Shown here in pieces: positions 7,239 to 12,058 of a stretch of 14,981 nucleotides of DNA. The DNA lies in contig JAEZEN010000320.1 of assembly GCA_023433185.1 (NCBI GenBank), forward strand, positions 1 through 14,981. The letters run 5' to 3'. The notes below the pieces were generated by a model. The model was not told where the DNA came from. It did no database searches and saw nothing but the letters and a program-made list of their open reading frames with translations. Position numbers and translations under genes: made by a program. This stretch comes from Pseudomonadota bacterium (GTDB lineage Bacteria > Pseudomonadota > Alphaproteobacteria > Rhizobiales > Kaistiaceae). How positions within the stretch are numbered: position 1 is the first letter of the stretch; the number at the start of each line of letters is the position of its first letter.

Positions 7239-7553
7239 CTATTCGGTCTGCGGCCAGTCCGCCTCCGGGCAGAACTGGCGGATGGCGTTCTGGTCGCCGC
7301 TGCCCTTGGCGTCCGCGCACTGGGCTTCGTTGGCCGCGTTGTCGGCCGACTCATCCATCACCGCGCCCGGTACGACGGTCTGCGGCCAGTCCGACTCCGG
7401 GCAGAACTGGCGGATGGCGTTCTGATCGCCGCTTCCCTTGGCCTCGGCGCACTGAGCGGCGTCGAGGGTCTGCGCGGTGGCCGGGATGGAAGTCATCGCC
7501 CCGGCGCTCATCAGGATGGCGGCAGAGGCGGCAATCGTGCGGATCAAGGTCAT
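7239..7553 (-). CDS. Small secreted two-repeat cysteine-containing protein, unknown function
   Basis: I do not recognise this family. The 104-residue product opens with MTLIR, a hydrophobic core (about 6-20) and P-A-T-A|Q, a good signal-peptidase I site after A27, so it should be periplasmic or secreted. The mature part consists almost wholly of two copies of one 27-residue unit (33-59 and 77-103), each with Cys-X15-Cys (C35/C51, C79/C95) and the core KGSGDQNAIRQFCPE-x-DWPQT. They are joined by an acidic, alanine-rich linker. A disulphide per repeat is plausible. ATG 7553 is chosen because AAGGA lies about 6 bp upstream and the signal peptide begins there; ATG 7568 is a weaker alternative. 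An EcfG-type promoter lies 37 bp upstream, suggesting induction in the general stress response. Confidence 0.75.
   Translation of the reverse strand: MTLIRTIAASAAILMSAGAMTSIPATAQTLDAAQCAEAKGSGDQNAIRQFCPESDWPQTVVPGAVMDESADNAANEAQCADAKGSGDQNAIRQFCPEADWPQTE
7245..7324 (-). repeat. Intragenic direct repeat, copy encoding C-terminal unit
   Basis: These 80 bp match 7377-7456 with about six substitutions (roughly 92% identity) at an offset of 132 bp (44 codons). They encode the second Cys-X15-Cys unit of the small secreted protein. Most substitutions are silent or conservative in that frame (for example Ser/Ala and Glu/Asp), so the coding frame appears to be under selection. Confidence 0.9.
7377..7456 (-). 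repeat. Intragenic direct repeat, copy encoding N-terminal unit
   Basis: Partner of the copy at 7245-7324. It encodes the first repeat unit after the signal peptide. High DNA identity between the copies points to a recent duplication or ongoing gene conversion. Confidence 0.9.
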
Positions 7554-7589
7554 GGCGTTTCCTTGCATGGTCGGATTCGACGAGGGCGG

Positions 7590-7614
7590 AACGCCGCGCG
7601 CGGGGACCGGTTCC
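7590..7614 (-). promoter_or_regulatory. EcfG (σT/RpoE2-type) promoter for the small secreted protein
   Basis: On the minus strand GGAAC (7614-7610) and CGTT (7593-7590) are separated by exactly 16 bp. This is a perfect match to the alphaproteobacterial general-stress sigma factor consensus GGAAC-N16/17-CGTT. A start about 7 bp downstream would give a leader of about 30 nt before ATG 7553. Confidence 0.8.
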
Positions 7615-7664
7615 CGCGACAAGGGACGGAGGGGACACCCGGTAGAAAAAAGGTCCGAACGGCG

Positions 7665-7689
7665 GGAACCATCCGGCGGCGAGCGAGTT
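7665..7689 (+). promoter_or_regulatory. EcfG-type promoter for a rightward small RNA
   Basis: GGAAC (7665-7669), a 16-bp spacer and AGTT (7686-7689) match the EcfG consensus in all but the first base of the -10 element. No open frame follows in this direction. The predicted start, near 7695-7698, coincides with the base of the hairpin at 7694-7739. Confidence 0.65.
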
Positions 7690-7695
7690 ATCGGC

Positions 7696-7788
7696 TCATC
7701 GGGAATGCCAGTTTCCCCCAGCCCGCGTTCCCGATGGGCGTGCACTAAGGCCGTCTTCCATGCTCACGCGGAAGACGGCCTTTCTTCT
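7696..7788 (+). ncRNA. Candidate general-stress small RNA, GsrN-like architecture
   Basis: The predicted RNA is about 93 nt. It begins with a long hairpin (7694-7705 paired with 7728-7739, core CATCGGGAA/TTCCCGATG) whose 22-nt loop contains UUUCCCCC and further C runs. Seven nt later comes a 13-bp terminator hairpin with a T-rich tail. It is preceded by an EcfG-type promoter. GsrN of Caulobacter is a σT-dependent sRNA conserved in Alphaproteobacteria, with a C-rich 5' loop that pairs with target leaders such as katG and a 3' intrinsic terminator. The match here is in promoter, order and loop composition; sequence homology was not tested. The C-rich loop could pair with G-rich ribosome binding sites. 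Its 3' half is antisense to the last codons of the GNAT gene. Confidence 0.6.
7747..7788 (+). terminator. Intrinsic terminator of the candidate sRNA, overlapping the GNAT gene end
   Basis: AAGGCCGTCTTCC (7747-7759) pairs perfectly over 13 bp with GGAAGACGGCCTT (7770-7782) around a 10-nt loop. On plus it runs on into TTTCTTCTT. On minus only two Ts follow, so it is a weaker terminator for the converging GNAT gene. The GNAT stop codon (7764-7766) lies in the loop. Confidence 0.75.
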
Positions 7789-8303
7789 TCCCGCGGCCGG
7801 CCGGCGCGGTTGTTCCTTTCCATGAAGACGGCGTCCCCGCCGTAGCCGCGGAGCTTCTCCGACATGCTCCGCCCGACGGGGCGGAACCCGAATCGCGACC
7901 AGAACCCGGCGGTGCCGTAGACGGACACGAGAGCGGTGGTCGGATAGGCCGCAGCGACGTCGAGGAGCCGGCGCACAGCTGCGGCGGAGGCTCCCTGGCC
8001 GCGCATCTCCGGGGCGACGACGACATCGTGGAGATAGAACTGGTCGGTATCCGCGGCGAGGCTTCCGAGAAGGGATCCGAGGGCCGGCGGCGACCCCTGG
8101 CGGATGGGATGCGCGATCGCATAGCCCGCAACGCCCGAAGGTGCCTCCAGCACCAGGCAGCCGTGCGGGAACAGCGCCAGCCGCTCTGCGAAAACGGCGC
8201 GGCCCTCGGGGAGATCGGGATGGCACCGGGCGGCGAGCGCCAGAACGGCGTCGAGGTCGGCGCCCTCCATCGGTCGCCAGACGAGGGCGGCCCGCTCGCT
8301 CAT
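7764..8303 (-). CDS. GNAT-family N-acetyltransferase
   Basis: This 179-residue cytosolic protein has the GNAT fold, transferring acetyl from acetyl-CoA to an amine of an unknown substrate. Motif A is LHDVVVAPEMRGQGASAAAV (91-110), where R-G-Q-G-A is the pyrophosphate-binding loop. The C-terminal YGTAGFWSRFGFRPV (129-143) is the usual 'A-x-x-F-[WY]-x-x-x-G-F' segment. ATG 8303 is preferred, with GGGGAG about 9-12 bp upstream on the minus strand. An ATG at 8321 lacks a ribosome binding site. The last codons are encoded inside the terminator hairpin of the opposing sRNA. The start faces the LexA-box region at 8366-8406, and because those sites are also readable as GTTC-N7-GTTC on this strand, SOS control is conceivable but unshown. 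Confidence 0.85.
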   Translation of the reverse strand: MSERAALVWRPMEGADLDAVLALAARCHPDLPEGRAVFAERLALFPHGCLVLEAPSGVAGYAIAHPIRQGSPPALGSLLGSLAADTDQFYLHDVVVAPEMRGQGASAAAVRRLLDVAAAYPTTALVSVYGTAGFWSRFGFRPVGRSMSEKLRGYGGDAVFMERNNRAGRPREEERPSSA

Positions 8304-8340
8304 CGGGCTTTCTCCCCACAATTAACCACGGTGCATTCCG

Positions 8341-8349
8341 CTATCCACA
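8341..8349 (+). promoter_or_regulatory. DnaA-box-like nonamer
   Basis: CTATCCACA differs from the DnaA box TTATCCACA only at its first base. It lies 16 bp ahead of the -35 element of the microprotein-dnaE promoter. DnaA is known to regulate replication genes in Alphaproteobacteria, but a single near-match can be chance. Confidence 0.3.
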
Positions 8350-8356
8350 GGTCTTG

Positions 8357-8385
8357 TTGACTCTCGAACGAAACGAGAACATAGT
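8357..8385 (+). promoter_or_regulatory. σ70-type promoter of the SOS microprotein gene
   Basis: TTGACT (8357-8362) and CATAGT (8380-8385) are separated by 17 bp and match the -35 and -10 consensus at 5 of 6 and 4 of 6 positions. A start near 8391-8393 gives a short leader before ATG 8413. The first LexA box fills the spacer. Confidence 0.65.
8366..8380 (+). promoter_or_regulatory. LexA (SOS) box 1
   Basis: GAAC-N7-GAAC is an exact match to the alphaproteobacterial LexA site, written GTTC-N7-GTTC on the other strand. It sits in the -35/-10 spacer, so bound LexA would block RNA polymerase. Confidence 0.85.
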
Positions 8386-8391
8386 TCCCTG

Positions 8392-8406
8392 GAACAAAGA
8401 GGGAAC
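8392..8406 (+). promoter_or_regulatory. LexA (SOS) box 2
   Basis: A second exact GAAC-N7-GAAC lies 26 bp downstream of the first. It covers the expected transcription start and the GAGGG ribosome binding site (8399-8403). Two perfect boxes in 41 bp are very unlikely to be chance and predict tight repression and strong induction by DNA damage. Confidence 0.85.
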
Positions 8407-8412
8407 ATTGCC

Positions 8413-8511
8413 ATGACCGCGTATATCAAGGATGTTGCCGCCCTGATCGCCATCGTCGCCTTCGTGGCCTCCGTCGGCGTCGCCCACGAGGCCGTTCGAC
8501 TTCTCCTGTAA
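8413..8511 (+). CDS. SOS-controlled single-pass membrane microprotein (32 aa), SidA-like in character
   Basis: The 33-codon frame ATG...TAA encodes a 32-residue peptide that starts MTAYIKD, has one hydrophobic helix (about 8-24, AALIAIVAFVASVGVA) and ends with HEAVRLLL. It is therefore a short inner-membrane protein. GAGGG at 8399-8403 lies 9 bp before the ATG, and two perfect LexA boxes control it. Nearly all codons end in G or C, like the neighbouring genes. SidA of Caulobacter crescentus is a 29-residue SOS-induced membrane peptide that delays division through FtsW/FtsN; size, topology and control agree, but I cannot test sequence homology. It precedes dnaE by 88 bp with no terminator seen, so they may share a transcript. 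It could alternatively be a leader peptide. Confidence 0.7.
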   Translation: MTAYIKDVAALIAIVAFVASVGVAHEAVRLLL

Positions 8512-8599
8512 CCCGCCCGTGCCGGCCGACGCGCCGGGGCGACGCATGGACTTCCCGCCGCCGCTCCGCGACACTCGGCGCTCTCCGGGAGACAGCGCC

Positions 8600-11500
8600 A
8601 TGAGTCGCATCGCCGACGAGGTCGGTTTCATACATCTTCGCGTGCATTCGGCCTATTCGCTGCTCGAGGGCGCGCTCCAGATCAAGAAGCTCGCGGCGCT
8701 CGCCCAGGCCGACCGGATGCCGGCGCTGGGTCTGGCCGACACGGGCAACCTGTTCGGTGCCCTCGAATTCGCGGAGAAGATGGCCGAGGCCGGGGTGCAG
8801 CCGATCATCGGCTGCCAGCTGGCGGTCGATTTCGGCGACAGCCCCGAGGCCGAGCGGCCGGGATCGGCGCGACCGAAGCGCCTCGCCGACCTCGTCGTCA
8901 TCGCCGCCAGCGAGGAGGGCTACTGGAACCTCGTCCGCCTCGTCTCGTCATCGTTCATCGATACCCCCCAGGGCGACCGGCCCCACGTCCCGGTGGCGGT
9001 GCTCGAGGCCGCCTCCGCCGGACTCATCGTCCTCACCGGTGGACCCGGCGGCCCCGTCGACCGGGCCGTCGCGGCCGGGCAGGCCGACCTTGCCGCGGCG
9101 CGGGTCGATCGTCTGGCGGCGGCCTTCCCGGATCGTCTCTATGTCGAGATCCAGCGCCACCTGACGGCGGAGGAGGAGGCGGTCGAGCCGCATCTTCTCG
9201 ACCTCGCCTATGGCCGCGGCCTGCCGATCGTCGCCACCAACGAGGTGTTCTTCCCCGCACGCGGGGACTACGAGGCGCACGACGCGCTGATCTGCATCGC
9301 CGAAGGCACGGTGATCGCCGACGACAACCGCCGGCGGCTGACCCCCGAGCATCATTTCAAGACCCGCGAGGAGATGCTGGCGCTCTTCGCCGACCTTCCC
9401 GAGGCGACCCGGAACACGGTCGAGATCGCGTTGCGCGCGGCTTTCTGGCCGCGGCTGCGGAAACCGATCCTGCCGCGCTTCGCGGGCGGCGACGCCGACG
9501 CCGAGACGGCCGAGGCTGCCGAGGCGGAACTGCTCCGCCGGATGGCGCGGGATGGCCTGGCGCGGCGCCTCGAGGCTCACGGCCTCGCGCCCGGGCAGAC
9601 CCGGGAGGACTACGAGTCGCGGCTCGATTTCGAGCTCAACGTGATCGCCCGGATGAAGTATCCCGGCTACTTCCTGATCGTCGCCGACTTCATCCAGTGG
9701 GCCAAGACGGCGGGCATACCGGTCGGTCCCGGCCGCGGCTCGGGGGCCGGCTCGGTGGTCGCCTGGGCGCTGACCATCACCGACCTCGATCCGCTCCGCT
9801 TCGGGCTGCTCTTCGAGCGCTTCCTCAATCCCGACCGCGTCTCGATGCCGGATTTCGACATCGACTTCTGCCAGAACCGGCGCGACGAGGTGATCCAATA
9901 CGTCCAGGAGAAGTACGGTGCCGACCGGGTGGCGCAGATCATCACCTTCGGCAGCCTCCAGGCGCGGGCCGTGCTCCGCGACGTCGGCCGCGTCCTCCAG
10001 ATGCCCTATGGCCAGGTCGACCGCATCGCCAAGATGATCCCGTTCAACCCGGCCGCGCCCGTGACGCTCGAGAAGGCGATCGCCGACGAGCCGCGGCTGA
10101 AGGCGATGCGCGACGAGGAACCCGTGGTGGCGCGGCTGCTCGCCATCGCCCAGAAGCTCGAGGGACTCTACCGCCATGCCTCGACCCATGCCGCCGGCAT
10201 CGTGATCGGCGACCGGCCGCTGGACCAGCTCGTCCCCCTCTACCGCGATCCGCGGTCGGGCATGAAGGTGACCCAGTTCAACATGAAATGGGTCGAGAAT
10301 GCCGGGCTCGTGAAGTTCGACTTCCTCGGGCTGAAGACGCTCACCACCCTCGACATCGCCGTCCGCCACGTCCGGCAGCGCGGCATCGATATCGACCTGT
10401 CGCGGATCCCGCTTGACGACCGCAGGGCCTACGAGATGCTGGCGCGGGGCGAGACGGTCGGGGTGTTCCAGGTGGAAAGCGCCGGGATGCGGCGTGCCCT
10501 GGTCGACATGCGCCCCGACCGCTTCGAGGACATCATTGCCCTCGTCGCGCTGTTCCGGCCGGGGCCGATGGCGAACATCCCGACCTACAATGCCCGCAAG
10601 CACGGCGACGAGGAGCCGGAATATCCCCATCCCCGGCTGGAGCCGTTCCTGAAGGAGACCTACGGGGTCATCGTCTACCAGGAACAGGTGATGCAGATCG
10701 CCCAGGAACTCGCCGGCTACTCGCTCGGCGAGGCCGACCTGCTCCGCCGCGCGATGGGCAAGAAGATCAAGGCGGAGATGGACGCCCAGCGGGGCCGCTT
10801 CGTCACCGGCGCGATGGAGCAGGGCATCGGGCGCGACCTCGCGGATTCGATCTTCGACCTCCTCGCCCGCTTCGCCGACTACGGCTTCAACAAGAGCCAC
10901 GCTGCCGCCTACGCGCTGGTCGCCTACCAGACCGCCTACATGAAAGCCAACTATCCGGTCGAGTTCATGGCGGCGTCGATGACGCTCGATACCGGCAATA
11001 CCGAGAAGATCGCCGAGTTCCGGCGCGAGGCGATCCGTCTCGGAATCGACGTGGAGCCGCCCTCGGTCAACCGCTCCGGCGTCGAGTTCGACGTCCGCGA
11101 CGGCCGCATCCTCTATTCGCTCGCGGCGATCAAGGGGGTGGGCGCCCAGGCCGTGGAGCATCTCGTTGCGGCGCGCGGCGACCGCCCGTTCAAGGATCTC
11201 GCCGATCTCGGACAGCGGATCAATCCGAAGATCATCAACAAGCGCACCCTCGAGAGCCTGATCGCCGCCGGCGCGCTCGATGAGCTGTGGCCGGACCGGG
11301 CGAGCGTGCATGCCGGCGTGGACCGGATTCTCGGCCATGCCGCGCGCCTCCAGGACAGCGCCAGCAGCGGCCAGACCGACATGTTCGGGGCGGCGCTTGC
11401 CGCCGACCCCGTGCTGCTGCCGGCCGTCGAGCCATGGCTTGCCGCCGAGCGGCTGCAGCGCGAGCACGATGCCGTCGGCTTCTACCTGTCGGCCCATCCC

Positions 11501-12058
11501 CTCGACGAGTATGCGGGCGTTCTCAAGAAGATGCGGGTGCAGACCTGGGCCGAGTTCAGCGAGTCCGTCCGGCGCGGCGCCACCGCCGGACGGCTTGCGG
11601 GCACCGTGACGGCGCGCCAGGAGCGGCGCATGCGGACGGGCAACCGGATGGCCGCGGTGCAGCTCTCGGACCCCTCGGGCACCTACGAGGGCGTGCTCTT
11701 CTCGGAGGGGCTGACGCAGTATCGCGAACTGCTCGAGCCGGGCCGGTCGGTGGTCGTCCTGGTCAGCGCCGAGGACCGCCCCGAGGGCATCAACGTGCGC
11801 ATCGAATCGGTCGAGCCGATCGAACGGCACATGGGCAGCCTCAAGCAGCTCCGGGTCTTCCTCCGCGACGAGGCGCCGCTGCCGAGCCTCGGCCGCCACC
11901 TCGTGCCGAAGGGGGAGGGGGCGGTCAGCCTCATCGTCATCCTCGAGGAAGGCCGGCGCGAGGTTGAATTGCAGCTGCCCGGGGGCTACGCCATATCCCC
12001 ACAGATCGCGAGCGCGCTCCGGGCCGTCAAGGGCGTCGAGCAGGTCGAGATGGTGTGA
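8600..12058 (+). CDS. dnaE: DNA polymerase III subunit alpha (DnaE1)
   Basis: This 1152-residue catalytic subunit of the replicative polymerase III carries out leading- and lagging-strand synthesis at the fork. It opens with the PHP domain (FIHLRVHSAYSLLEGA, 10-25). The palm-domain catalytic aspartates are D418 and D420 in PDFDIDFC and D574 in VKFDFLG, spaced as D401, D403 and D555 of E. coli. The internal β-clamp motif is QTDMF (925-929), equivalent to QADMF in E. coli. An OB fold follows (about 1000-1075), then the τ-binding tail. Length and the clamp motif mark it as DnaE1, not the shorter error-prone ImuC/DnaE2. ATG 8600 has GGGAGA about 8 bp upstream; an in-frame extension to 8519 is low-complexity and unlikely. 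It may be read from the LexA-controlled promoter upstream as well as from a promoter I cannot see. Confidence 0.96.
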   Translation: MSRIADEVGFIHLRVHSAYSLLEGALQIKKLAALAQADRMPALGLADTGNLFGALEFAEKMAEAGVQPIIGCQLAVDFGDSPEAERPGSARPKRLADLVVIAASEEGYWNLVRLVSSSFIDTPQGDRPHVPVAVLEAASAGLIVLTGGPGGPVDRAVAAGQADLAAARVDRLAAAFPDRLYVEIQRHLTAEEEAVEPHLLDLAYGRGLPIVATNEVFFPARGDYEAHDALICIAEGTVIADDNRRRLTPEHHFKTREEMLALFADLPEATRNTVEIALRAAFWPRLRKPILPRFAGGDADAETAEAAEAELLRRMARDGLARRLEAHGLAPGQTREDYESRLDFELNVIARMKYPGYFLIVADFIQWAKTAGIPVGPGRGSGAGSVVAWALTITDLDPLRFGLLFERFLNPDRVSMPDFDIDFCQNRRDEVIQYVQEKYGADRVAQIITFGSLQARAVLRDVGRVLQMPYGQVDRIAKMIPFNPAAPVTLEKAIADEPRLKAMRDEEPVVARLLAIAQKLEGLYRHASTHAAGIVIGDRPLDQLVPLYRDPRSGMKVTQFNMKWVENAGLVKFDFLGLKTLTTLDIAVRHVRQRGIDIDLSRIPLDDRRAYEMLARGETVGVFQVESAGMRRALVDMRPDRFEDIIALVALFRPGPMANIPTYNARKHGDEEPEYPHPRLEPFLKETYGVIVYQEQVMQIAQELAGYSLGEADLLRRAMGKKIKAEMDAQRGRFVTGAMEQGIGRDLADSIFDLLARFADYGFNKSHAAAYALVAYQTAYMKANYPVEFMAASMTLDTGNTEKIAEFRREAIRLGIDVEPPSVNRSGVEFDVRDGRILYSLAAIKGVGAQAVEHLVAARGDRPFKDLADLGQRINPKIINKRTLESLIAAGALDELWPDRASVHAGVDRILGHAARLQDSASSGQTDMFGAALAADPVLLPAVEPWLAAERLQREHDAVGFYLSAHPLDEYAGVLKKMRVQTWAEFSESVRRGATAGRLAGTVTARQERRMRTGNRMAAVQLSDPSGTYEGVLFSEGLTQYRELLEPGRSVVVLVSAEDRPEGINVRIESVEPIERHMGSLKQLRVFLRDEAPLPSLGRHLVPKGEGAVSLIVILEEGRREVELQLPGGYAISPQIASALRAVKGVEQVEMV

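Follow-up and report, generated by a model that had tools for sequence, protein, structure and literature searches.

What does the short reading frame encode that lies between a pair of LexA boxes and the gene for the replicative DNA polymerase in the window (the whole stretch of 14,981 nucleotides that was analysed), and is it a gene in its own right? The frame (8413..8511, + strand) runs from ATG to TAA and specifies a predicted SidA-like membrane microprotein of 32 aa with a single hydrophobic stretch (peak hydropathy 2.72 over 17 residues). The sequence GAGGG (8399..8403, + strand), 9 nt before the ATG, is read as its ribosome binding site. Upstream, a promoter scan found a sigma70-type promoter (8357..8385, + strand; -35 TTGACT at 8357-8362, -10 CATAGT at 8380-8385, spacer of 17 bases, nine of 12 consensus matches), the TTGAC of which recurs in relatives. 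LexA box 1 (GAACGAAACGAGAAC, 8366..8380, + strand) lies inside the -35/-10 spacer and reaches the first base of CATAGT; LexA box 2 (GAACAAAGAGGGAAC, 8392..8406, + strand) lies over the predicted start and contains the ribosome binding site. Both match GAAC-N7-GAAC exactly and are the only such sites in all 14,981 bases (chance expectation 0.38; at least two sites in 10 of 200 shuffles). The earlier note on this DNA had described just this arrangement, a short frame with its own ribosome binding site and one hydrophobic helix behind a sigma70-type promoter holding two exact LexA boxes, and these elements were borne out. The frame is followed on its strand by dnaE (8600..12058, + strand; Pfam domains), encoding the DNA polymerase III alpha subunit, which we regard as the usual downstream neighbour and not as part of the proposed inhibitor.

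Existing family models do not name the peptide. It matched no Pfam family at E ≤ 10, the NCBIfam search did not match it to NF033228 (SidA), and its sole NCBIfam match was to the helix of an unrelated antiporter subunit (E 0.0082, far under the model cut-off). An RNA element was also considered and rejected, with no Rfam match at E ≤ 1 in 8250-8700. A search of the + strand over the same interval found no terminator-like site.

Conservation was followed in the family of Bauldia (L001, dnaE 77%), the nearest relative in a scan of dnaE loci described below. A match at E ≤ 1 was found in 27 of the 28 genomes of this family (one genome had none), and 24 of the 28 combine an intact frame, an exact LexA box and dnaE, one locus per genome. 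Throughout these 24 loci dnaE begins 37-178 nt past the stop codon, the exact box lies 38-54 nt before the start codon and TTGAC recurs before the box (by eye). The remaining matches comprise five weak ones without dnaE (L172-L176) and a locus with dnaE that is interrupted by a contig end (L171) and is not counted among the 24. Substitutions are depleted at amino-acid-changing positions of the frame, with a pN/pS of 0.45, compared with 1.24 and 1.86 when the frame is shifted (128 non-independent pairs from 25 sequences, uncorrected), a pattern indicating that selection acts on the amino acids of the peptide in the relatives. The earlier note had named loss of the frame or boxes in relatives, or broken frames at orthologous loci, as grounds for abandoning its proposal; frame and box are instead widely kept, with the frame intact in 24 loci. 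Its description of the gene as doubly LexA-repressed fared less well, in that two exact boxes occur in the window and in L153, the only such case among the 24 fully read Bauldia-family loci, and are thus not a trait of the family. L153, whose dnaE (83%) is the most similar to that of the window among those compared, has its boxes at -48 and -21 from the start codon (-47 and -21 in the window), box 2 being common to both, and its genome (L153/L227) shares with the window BtpA-like and sugar-kinase-like neighbours (by eye).

The association of LexA boxes with this position extends well beyond the family. A scan for DnaE in bacterial genomes retrieved 80 dnaE loci. In these, the density of exact boxes over the 500 nt preceding dnaE is 40 times that of the remaining sequence (39 boxes in 39,108 bp, distributed over 28 of the 80 loci, against 15 in 601,715 bp), and the upstream boxes are therefore more than chance occurrences. 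A hydrophobic frame follows the box in 26 of the 28 box-bearing loci (exceptions L048 and L078; the readout of boxes and frames covers L058 to L062 in part only). Most of these frames span 26-34 residues, and L017 and L050 have longer N-termini. An exact box also stands immediately 5' of lexA in six of six relatives; the fetched recA stretches of five relatives (L177-L181), in which only exact sites were sought, contained none.

SidA itself occupies the same address. NF033228, 'cell division inhibitor SidA' (equivalog cut-off 35 bits), was matched in 23 of 120 Caulobacterales genomes, the other 97 having no match at the threshold of E ≤ 0.01, and in 22 of these 23 genomes the match lies directly upstream of dnaE, the exception being L112. 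All 15 genomes above the cut-off show this adjacency, as do seven of the eight with matches below 35 bits; one genome carries a second match away from dnaE (L113). Caulobacter crescentus (C. vibrioides) served as the named control and scored above the cut-off, dnaE adjacency being read from the other Caulobacterales loci. Exact LexA boxes are present in 17 of the 22 dnaE-adjacent loci and one-mismatch boxes only in the other five (L058-L062 read in part). At one Caulobacter locus of the DnaE scan (L059) the frame that follows the box is itself an NF033228 match (2.8e-15).

Profiles built from hydrophobic ORFs upstream of dnaE connect the two groups. Start codons were chosen by eye, L017 and L050 were trimmed at the N-terminus, and duplicates (L007, L049, L093, L094) were excluded, as were loci that offered no candidate. 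Twenty relatives, mostly Hyphomicrobiales and not including the window or Bauldia, formed a profile that gave the window peptide 23.7 bits, compared with at best 8.3 bits for 94 control membrane sORFs and 11.4 for 100 shuffles. With the profile of all 22 peptides, all of 23 Caulobacterales SidA-type peptides outscored the control sORFs (11.3 or more, against 8.4 at most), two of them falling under the best of 1100 shuffles (13.1). In the reverse direction, with a Caulobacterales-only SidA profile, 12 of the 22 Hyphomicrobiales-type peptides scored higher than any of the 94 controls. The window peptide and Bauldia were not among them; since they reached only 4.4 bits (1 of the 94 controls as high) and -0.1, respectively, the profiles place the SidA link in the family as a whole and not in the single window peptide. 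NF033228 likewise matched 3 of 40 Hyphomicrobiales-type peptides, with a best E of 0.0062.

A direct comparison of a hand-picked Hyphomicrobiales profile (A4, 40 rows, leaving out the divergent L017, L021, L024, L033 and L050) with a Caulobacterales SidA profile (A5, 19 rows) gave a probability of 95.3% and an E of 2.1e-8. Removing the window and its three nearest sequences left the probability at 95.5%, and 100 column-shuffled versions reached at most 17.4%. One phenylalanine, F17, is the same in every row of both A4 and A5 (the divergent L021, outside A4, lacks it), and the C-terminal half of the family peptides is variable. Shared position, LexA boxes and the profile comparison together argue for a relative by descent and not a mere analogue, so that the window peptide is, very likely, a SidA relative that had been overlooked; the functional equivalent proposed in the earlier note is supported and extended to kinship. 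The window peptide and SidA of C. crescentus are alike in their size of about 30 residues, their single hydrophobic helix, a charged pair ahead of an A-L/F core, the conserved F17, the LexA boxes and the address directly upstream of dnaE. They differ in length (32 versus 29 residues), and the window peptide lacks both an NF033228 match and the tryptophan that is invariant in A5. Divergent members at the dnaE address in Microvirga (L030, L075), Methylobacterium (L033) and L021 have no charged pair before the helix and possibly form a separate subfamily.

Two surveys of 150 genomes of the order give an impression of how common the gene is. A hand-picked profile (A3), its rows drawn from the dnaE loci of the 80-locus scan and the Caulobacterales search, matched 71 of the 150 at E ≤ 0.1. 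Among the best 30 of these 71 loci, 28 stand 45-662 nt before dnaE, 24 with an exact LexA box and four with one-mismatch boxes only; the other two are a dnaE locus with an inserted gene (L143/L149) and a prophage-like stretch (L137/L148). A4, searched irrespective of position in the genome, matched 78 genomes, with 72 giving no match at E ≤ 0.1; this survey is not independent of the former, 16 of the 40 A4 rows coming from genomes of the same draw (Bauldia, L001/L119, included). Crossing these matches with DnaE positions showed that 58 of the 78 genomes have their best A4 match no more than 1000 nt before dnaE and on its strand, at distances of 63-684 nt between the peptide match and the dnaE match. 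The adjacent share declines with match quality, from 40 of 46 at E ≤ 1e-5 through 11 of 16 up to 1e-3 to 7 of 16 up to 0.1. In a class-wide draw, 5 of 289 genomes matched and 284 had no match at E ≤ 0.001. The genomes of this draw and of the order draw were selected automatically. Sixteen further genomes whose dnaE locus holds no clear candidate included four of Mesorhizobium or Aquibium, three of which carry a SidA-like gene elsewhere in the genome; in the fourth and in the other 12, which include Rhodobacterales and Acetobacteraceae, any match that did turn up had E ≥ 0.3.

In a number of genomes the gene is found apart from dnaE. SidA-like frames with an exact box, and no dnaE in the fetched stretch, occur at L188, L189, L190, L224 and L226. 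At two further loci the frame and an exact box are kept while other genes intervene before dnaE: a same-strand gene, short-chain dehydrogenase-like by eye, at L149, and two opposite-strand ORFs at L225. Six A4 matches at E ≤ 1e-5 do not adjoin dnaE. One adjoins lolCD and has two exact boxes (G232, L224); another, also with two exact boxes, has lolCD about 2 kb off with an ORF between (G263, L226); a third has two exact boxes on a short stretch in which lolCD is absent (G196, L220). The remaining three are the genome with one gene separating the match from dnaE (G212, L149), that with the opposite-strand ORFs (G170, L225) and one (G211) whose best match is a prophage copy, another copy being at dnaE. 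The genes of L188-L190 (Mesorhizobium, Aquibium), L224 and L226 all lie near lolCD, each accompanied by one exact LexA box or by two. Within the 80-locus scan, 37 loci carry lolD on the upstream side of dnaE, and the older gene order was likely lolC-lolD-sidA-dnaE. The prophage copy of G211 is a SidA-like frame of 27 residues (L148:4400-4483, - strand; second copy L150) in a prophage-like stretch with phage integrase, SSB and primase-polymerase (Pfam); the only exact LexA box of that stretch is ~630 nt away. A search of phage records with this copy found no match. A phage-borne division inhibitor in this genome is possible.

Taken with the kinship to SidA, the arrangement makes it probable that the window gene encodes a SidA-family SOS division inhibitor, a LexA-controlled, single-helix peptide restraining the late divisome. 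In an undamaged cell, LexA would close the promoter through the box between -35 and -10 and the box that covers start and ribosome binding site. Damage to the DNA would activate RecA and lead to LexA self-cleavage, upon which the 32-residue peptide would be made, insert in the inner membrane as one helix and keep the late divisome (FtsW/FtsI/FtsN) inactive, so that the cell would not divide until repair is complete and LexA is back. LexA binding, induction, membrane insertion, the FtsW/FtsN target and division arrest are presumed here from what relatedness to SidA would imply. SidA is reported to act on FtsW/FtsN (PMC4211646), and Caulobacter lexA mutants are described as filamenting because of constitutive sidA (PMC12700426). 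According to the same source, the sidA promoter, called early, gives more reporter signal than the uvrA promoter, called late, and about 97% of Caulobacter SOS promoters have a single LexA box (PMC12700426). Comparable small proteins have been described: DidA is likewise a small single-helix protein of the inner membrane that acts on FtsN, but it has 71 residues and is SOS-independent (PMC4211646), and YneA is SOS-induced and interacts with FtsW (PMC13396833). In the literature as searched, where subscription papers are thinly covered, we found no description of Hyphomicrobiales relatives of SidA or of the sidA-dnaE neighbourhood, and no SOS-induced division inhibitor named for rhizobia and their relatives.

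Other explanations of the locus can be envisioned. Short ORFs are common, and this one is named in neither Pfam nor NCBIfam, but a chance frame within a LexA-regulated promoter region is exceedingly improbable given its conservation in 24 of the 28 Bauldia-family genomes, in-frame selection at a pN/pS of 0.45 and profile scores far over those of the controls; conserved frame and in-frame selection led us to reject it. A peptide that is SOS-induced and membrane-bound might also have another target, as a TisB-like depolarising toxin or a modulator of some other membrane protein. TisB, itself a short membrane peptide induced in the SOS response, provides a precedent; the variable C-terminal half would fit such a function, and the SidA sequence link, strong for the family, is weak for the window peptide alone. 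Against this, Pfam contains a TisB model and the window peptide has no Pfam match at E ≤ 10, and position and profile tie it to SidA; we consider another target unlikely.

The frame could, moreover, be a leader peptide or upstream ORF that tunes dnaE, with the LexA boxes making the replicative polymerase SOS-inducible. Proximity speaks for such a role, dnaE lying in the same orientation no more than 1 kb downstream in 58 of the 78 matched genomes and the + strand from 8250 to 8700 having no terminator-like site, as does a translated sORF in the dnaE1 5'-UTR of Sinorhizobium meliloti (PMC10117765). This sORF25, identified by Ribo-seq, is named there among 5'-UTR sORFs of which some could act as upstream ORFs; SOS, LexA and SidA do not occur in the main text of that paper. 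A translated small ORF before dnaE1, it occupies the position usual for the SidA-like family, and it is probably the same gene. A leader would, however, be hard to reconcile with the loci at which the frame persists, together with one or more exact LexA boxes, without dnaE as its direct neighbour (L188, L189, L190, L224, L226, L149 and L225), with a peptide-dnaE distance that varies from 63 to 684 nt in 58 genomes, with selection on amino acids, or with the lack of an Rfam match at E ≤ 1 in 8250-8700. Because the gene persists with its LexA boxes at loci where dnaE lies elsewhere or behind intervening genes, control of dnaE is unlikely to be its main task, and we rejected this as the main reading, giving it quite a low probability. 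The peptide gene and dnaE may possibly share a transcript nonetheless.

SidA-type inhibition is already known as a kind; what appears to be new is how wide the family is, where its genes usually lie and that they can occur apart from dnaE. With a conserved gene to be expected at a known place, and one that neither Pfam nor NCBIfam names, the question of an SOS division inhibitor in rhizobia can be put to a direct test, and the translated upstream ORF of S. meliloti dnaE1 can be read in a new way. The family, which is divergent around a conserved core (F17, the charged pair and A-L/F), could also aid in mapping the control of FtsW by a helix of about 30 residues. More tentatively, and as a conjecture that we hold to be rather less probable than its negation, SidA might be the SOS checkpoint ancestral to Hyphomicrobiales and Caulobacterales at least, with brake and polymerase co-transcribed and sORF25 an instance of this checkpoint. 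If so, a single LexA-controlled transcript would, where the gene precedes dnaE, yield both a division brake and the replicative polymerase, damage would stop division and raise replication capacity at once, and translated dnaE 'upstream ORFs' such as that of S. meliloti would be an SOS checkpoint. Elsewhere in the window, on the opposite strand (7239-7745, - strand), a small predicted protein contains an internal repeat, AQCA-AKGSGDQNAIRQFCPE-DWPQT, that is present twice.
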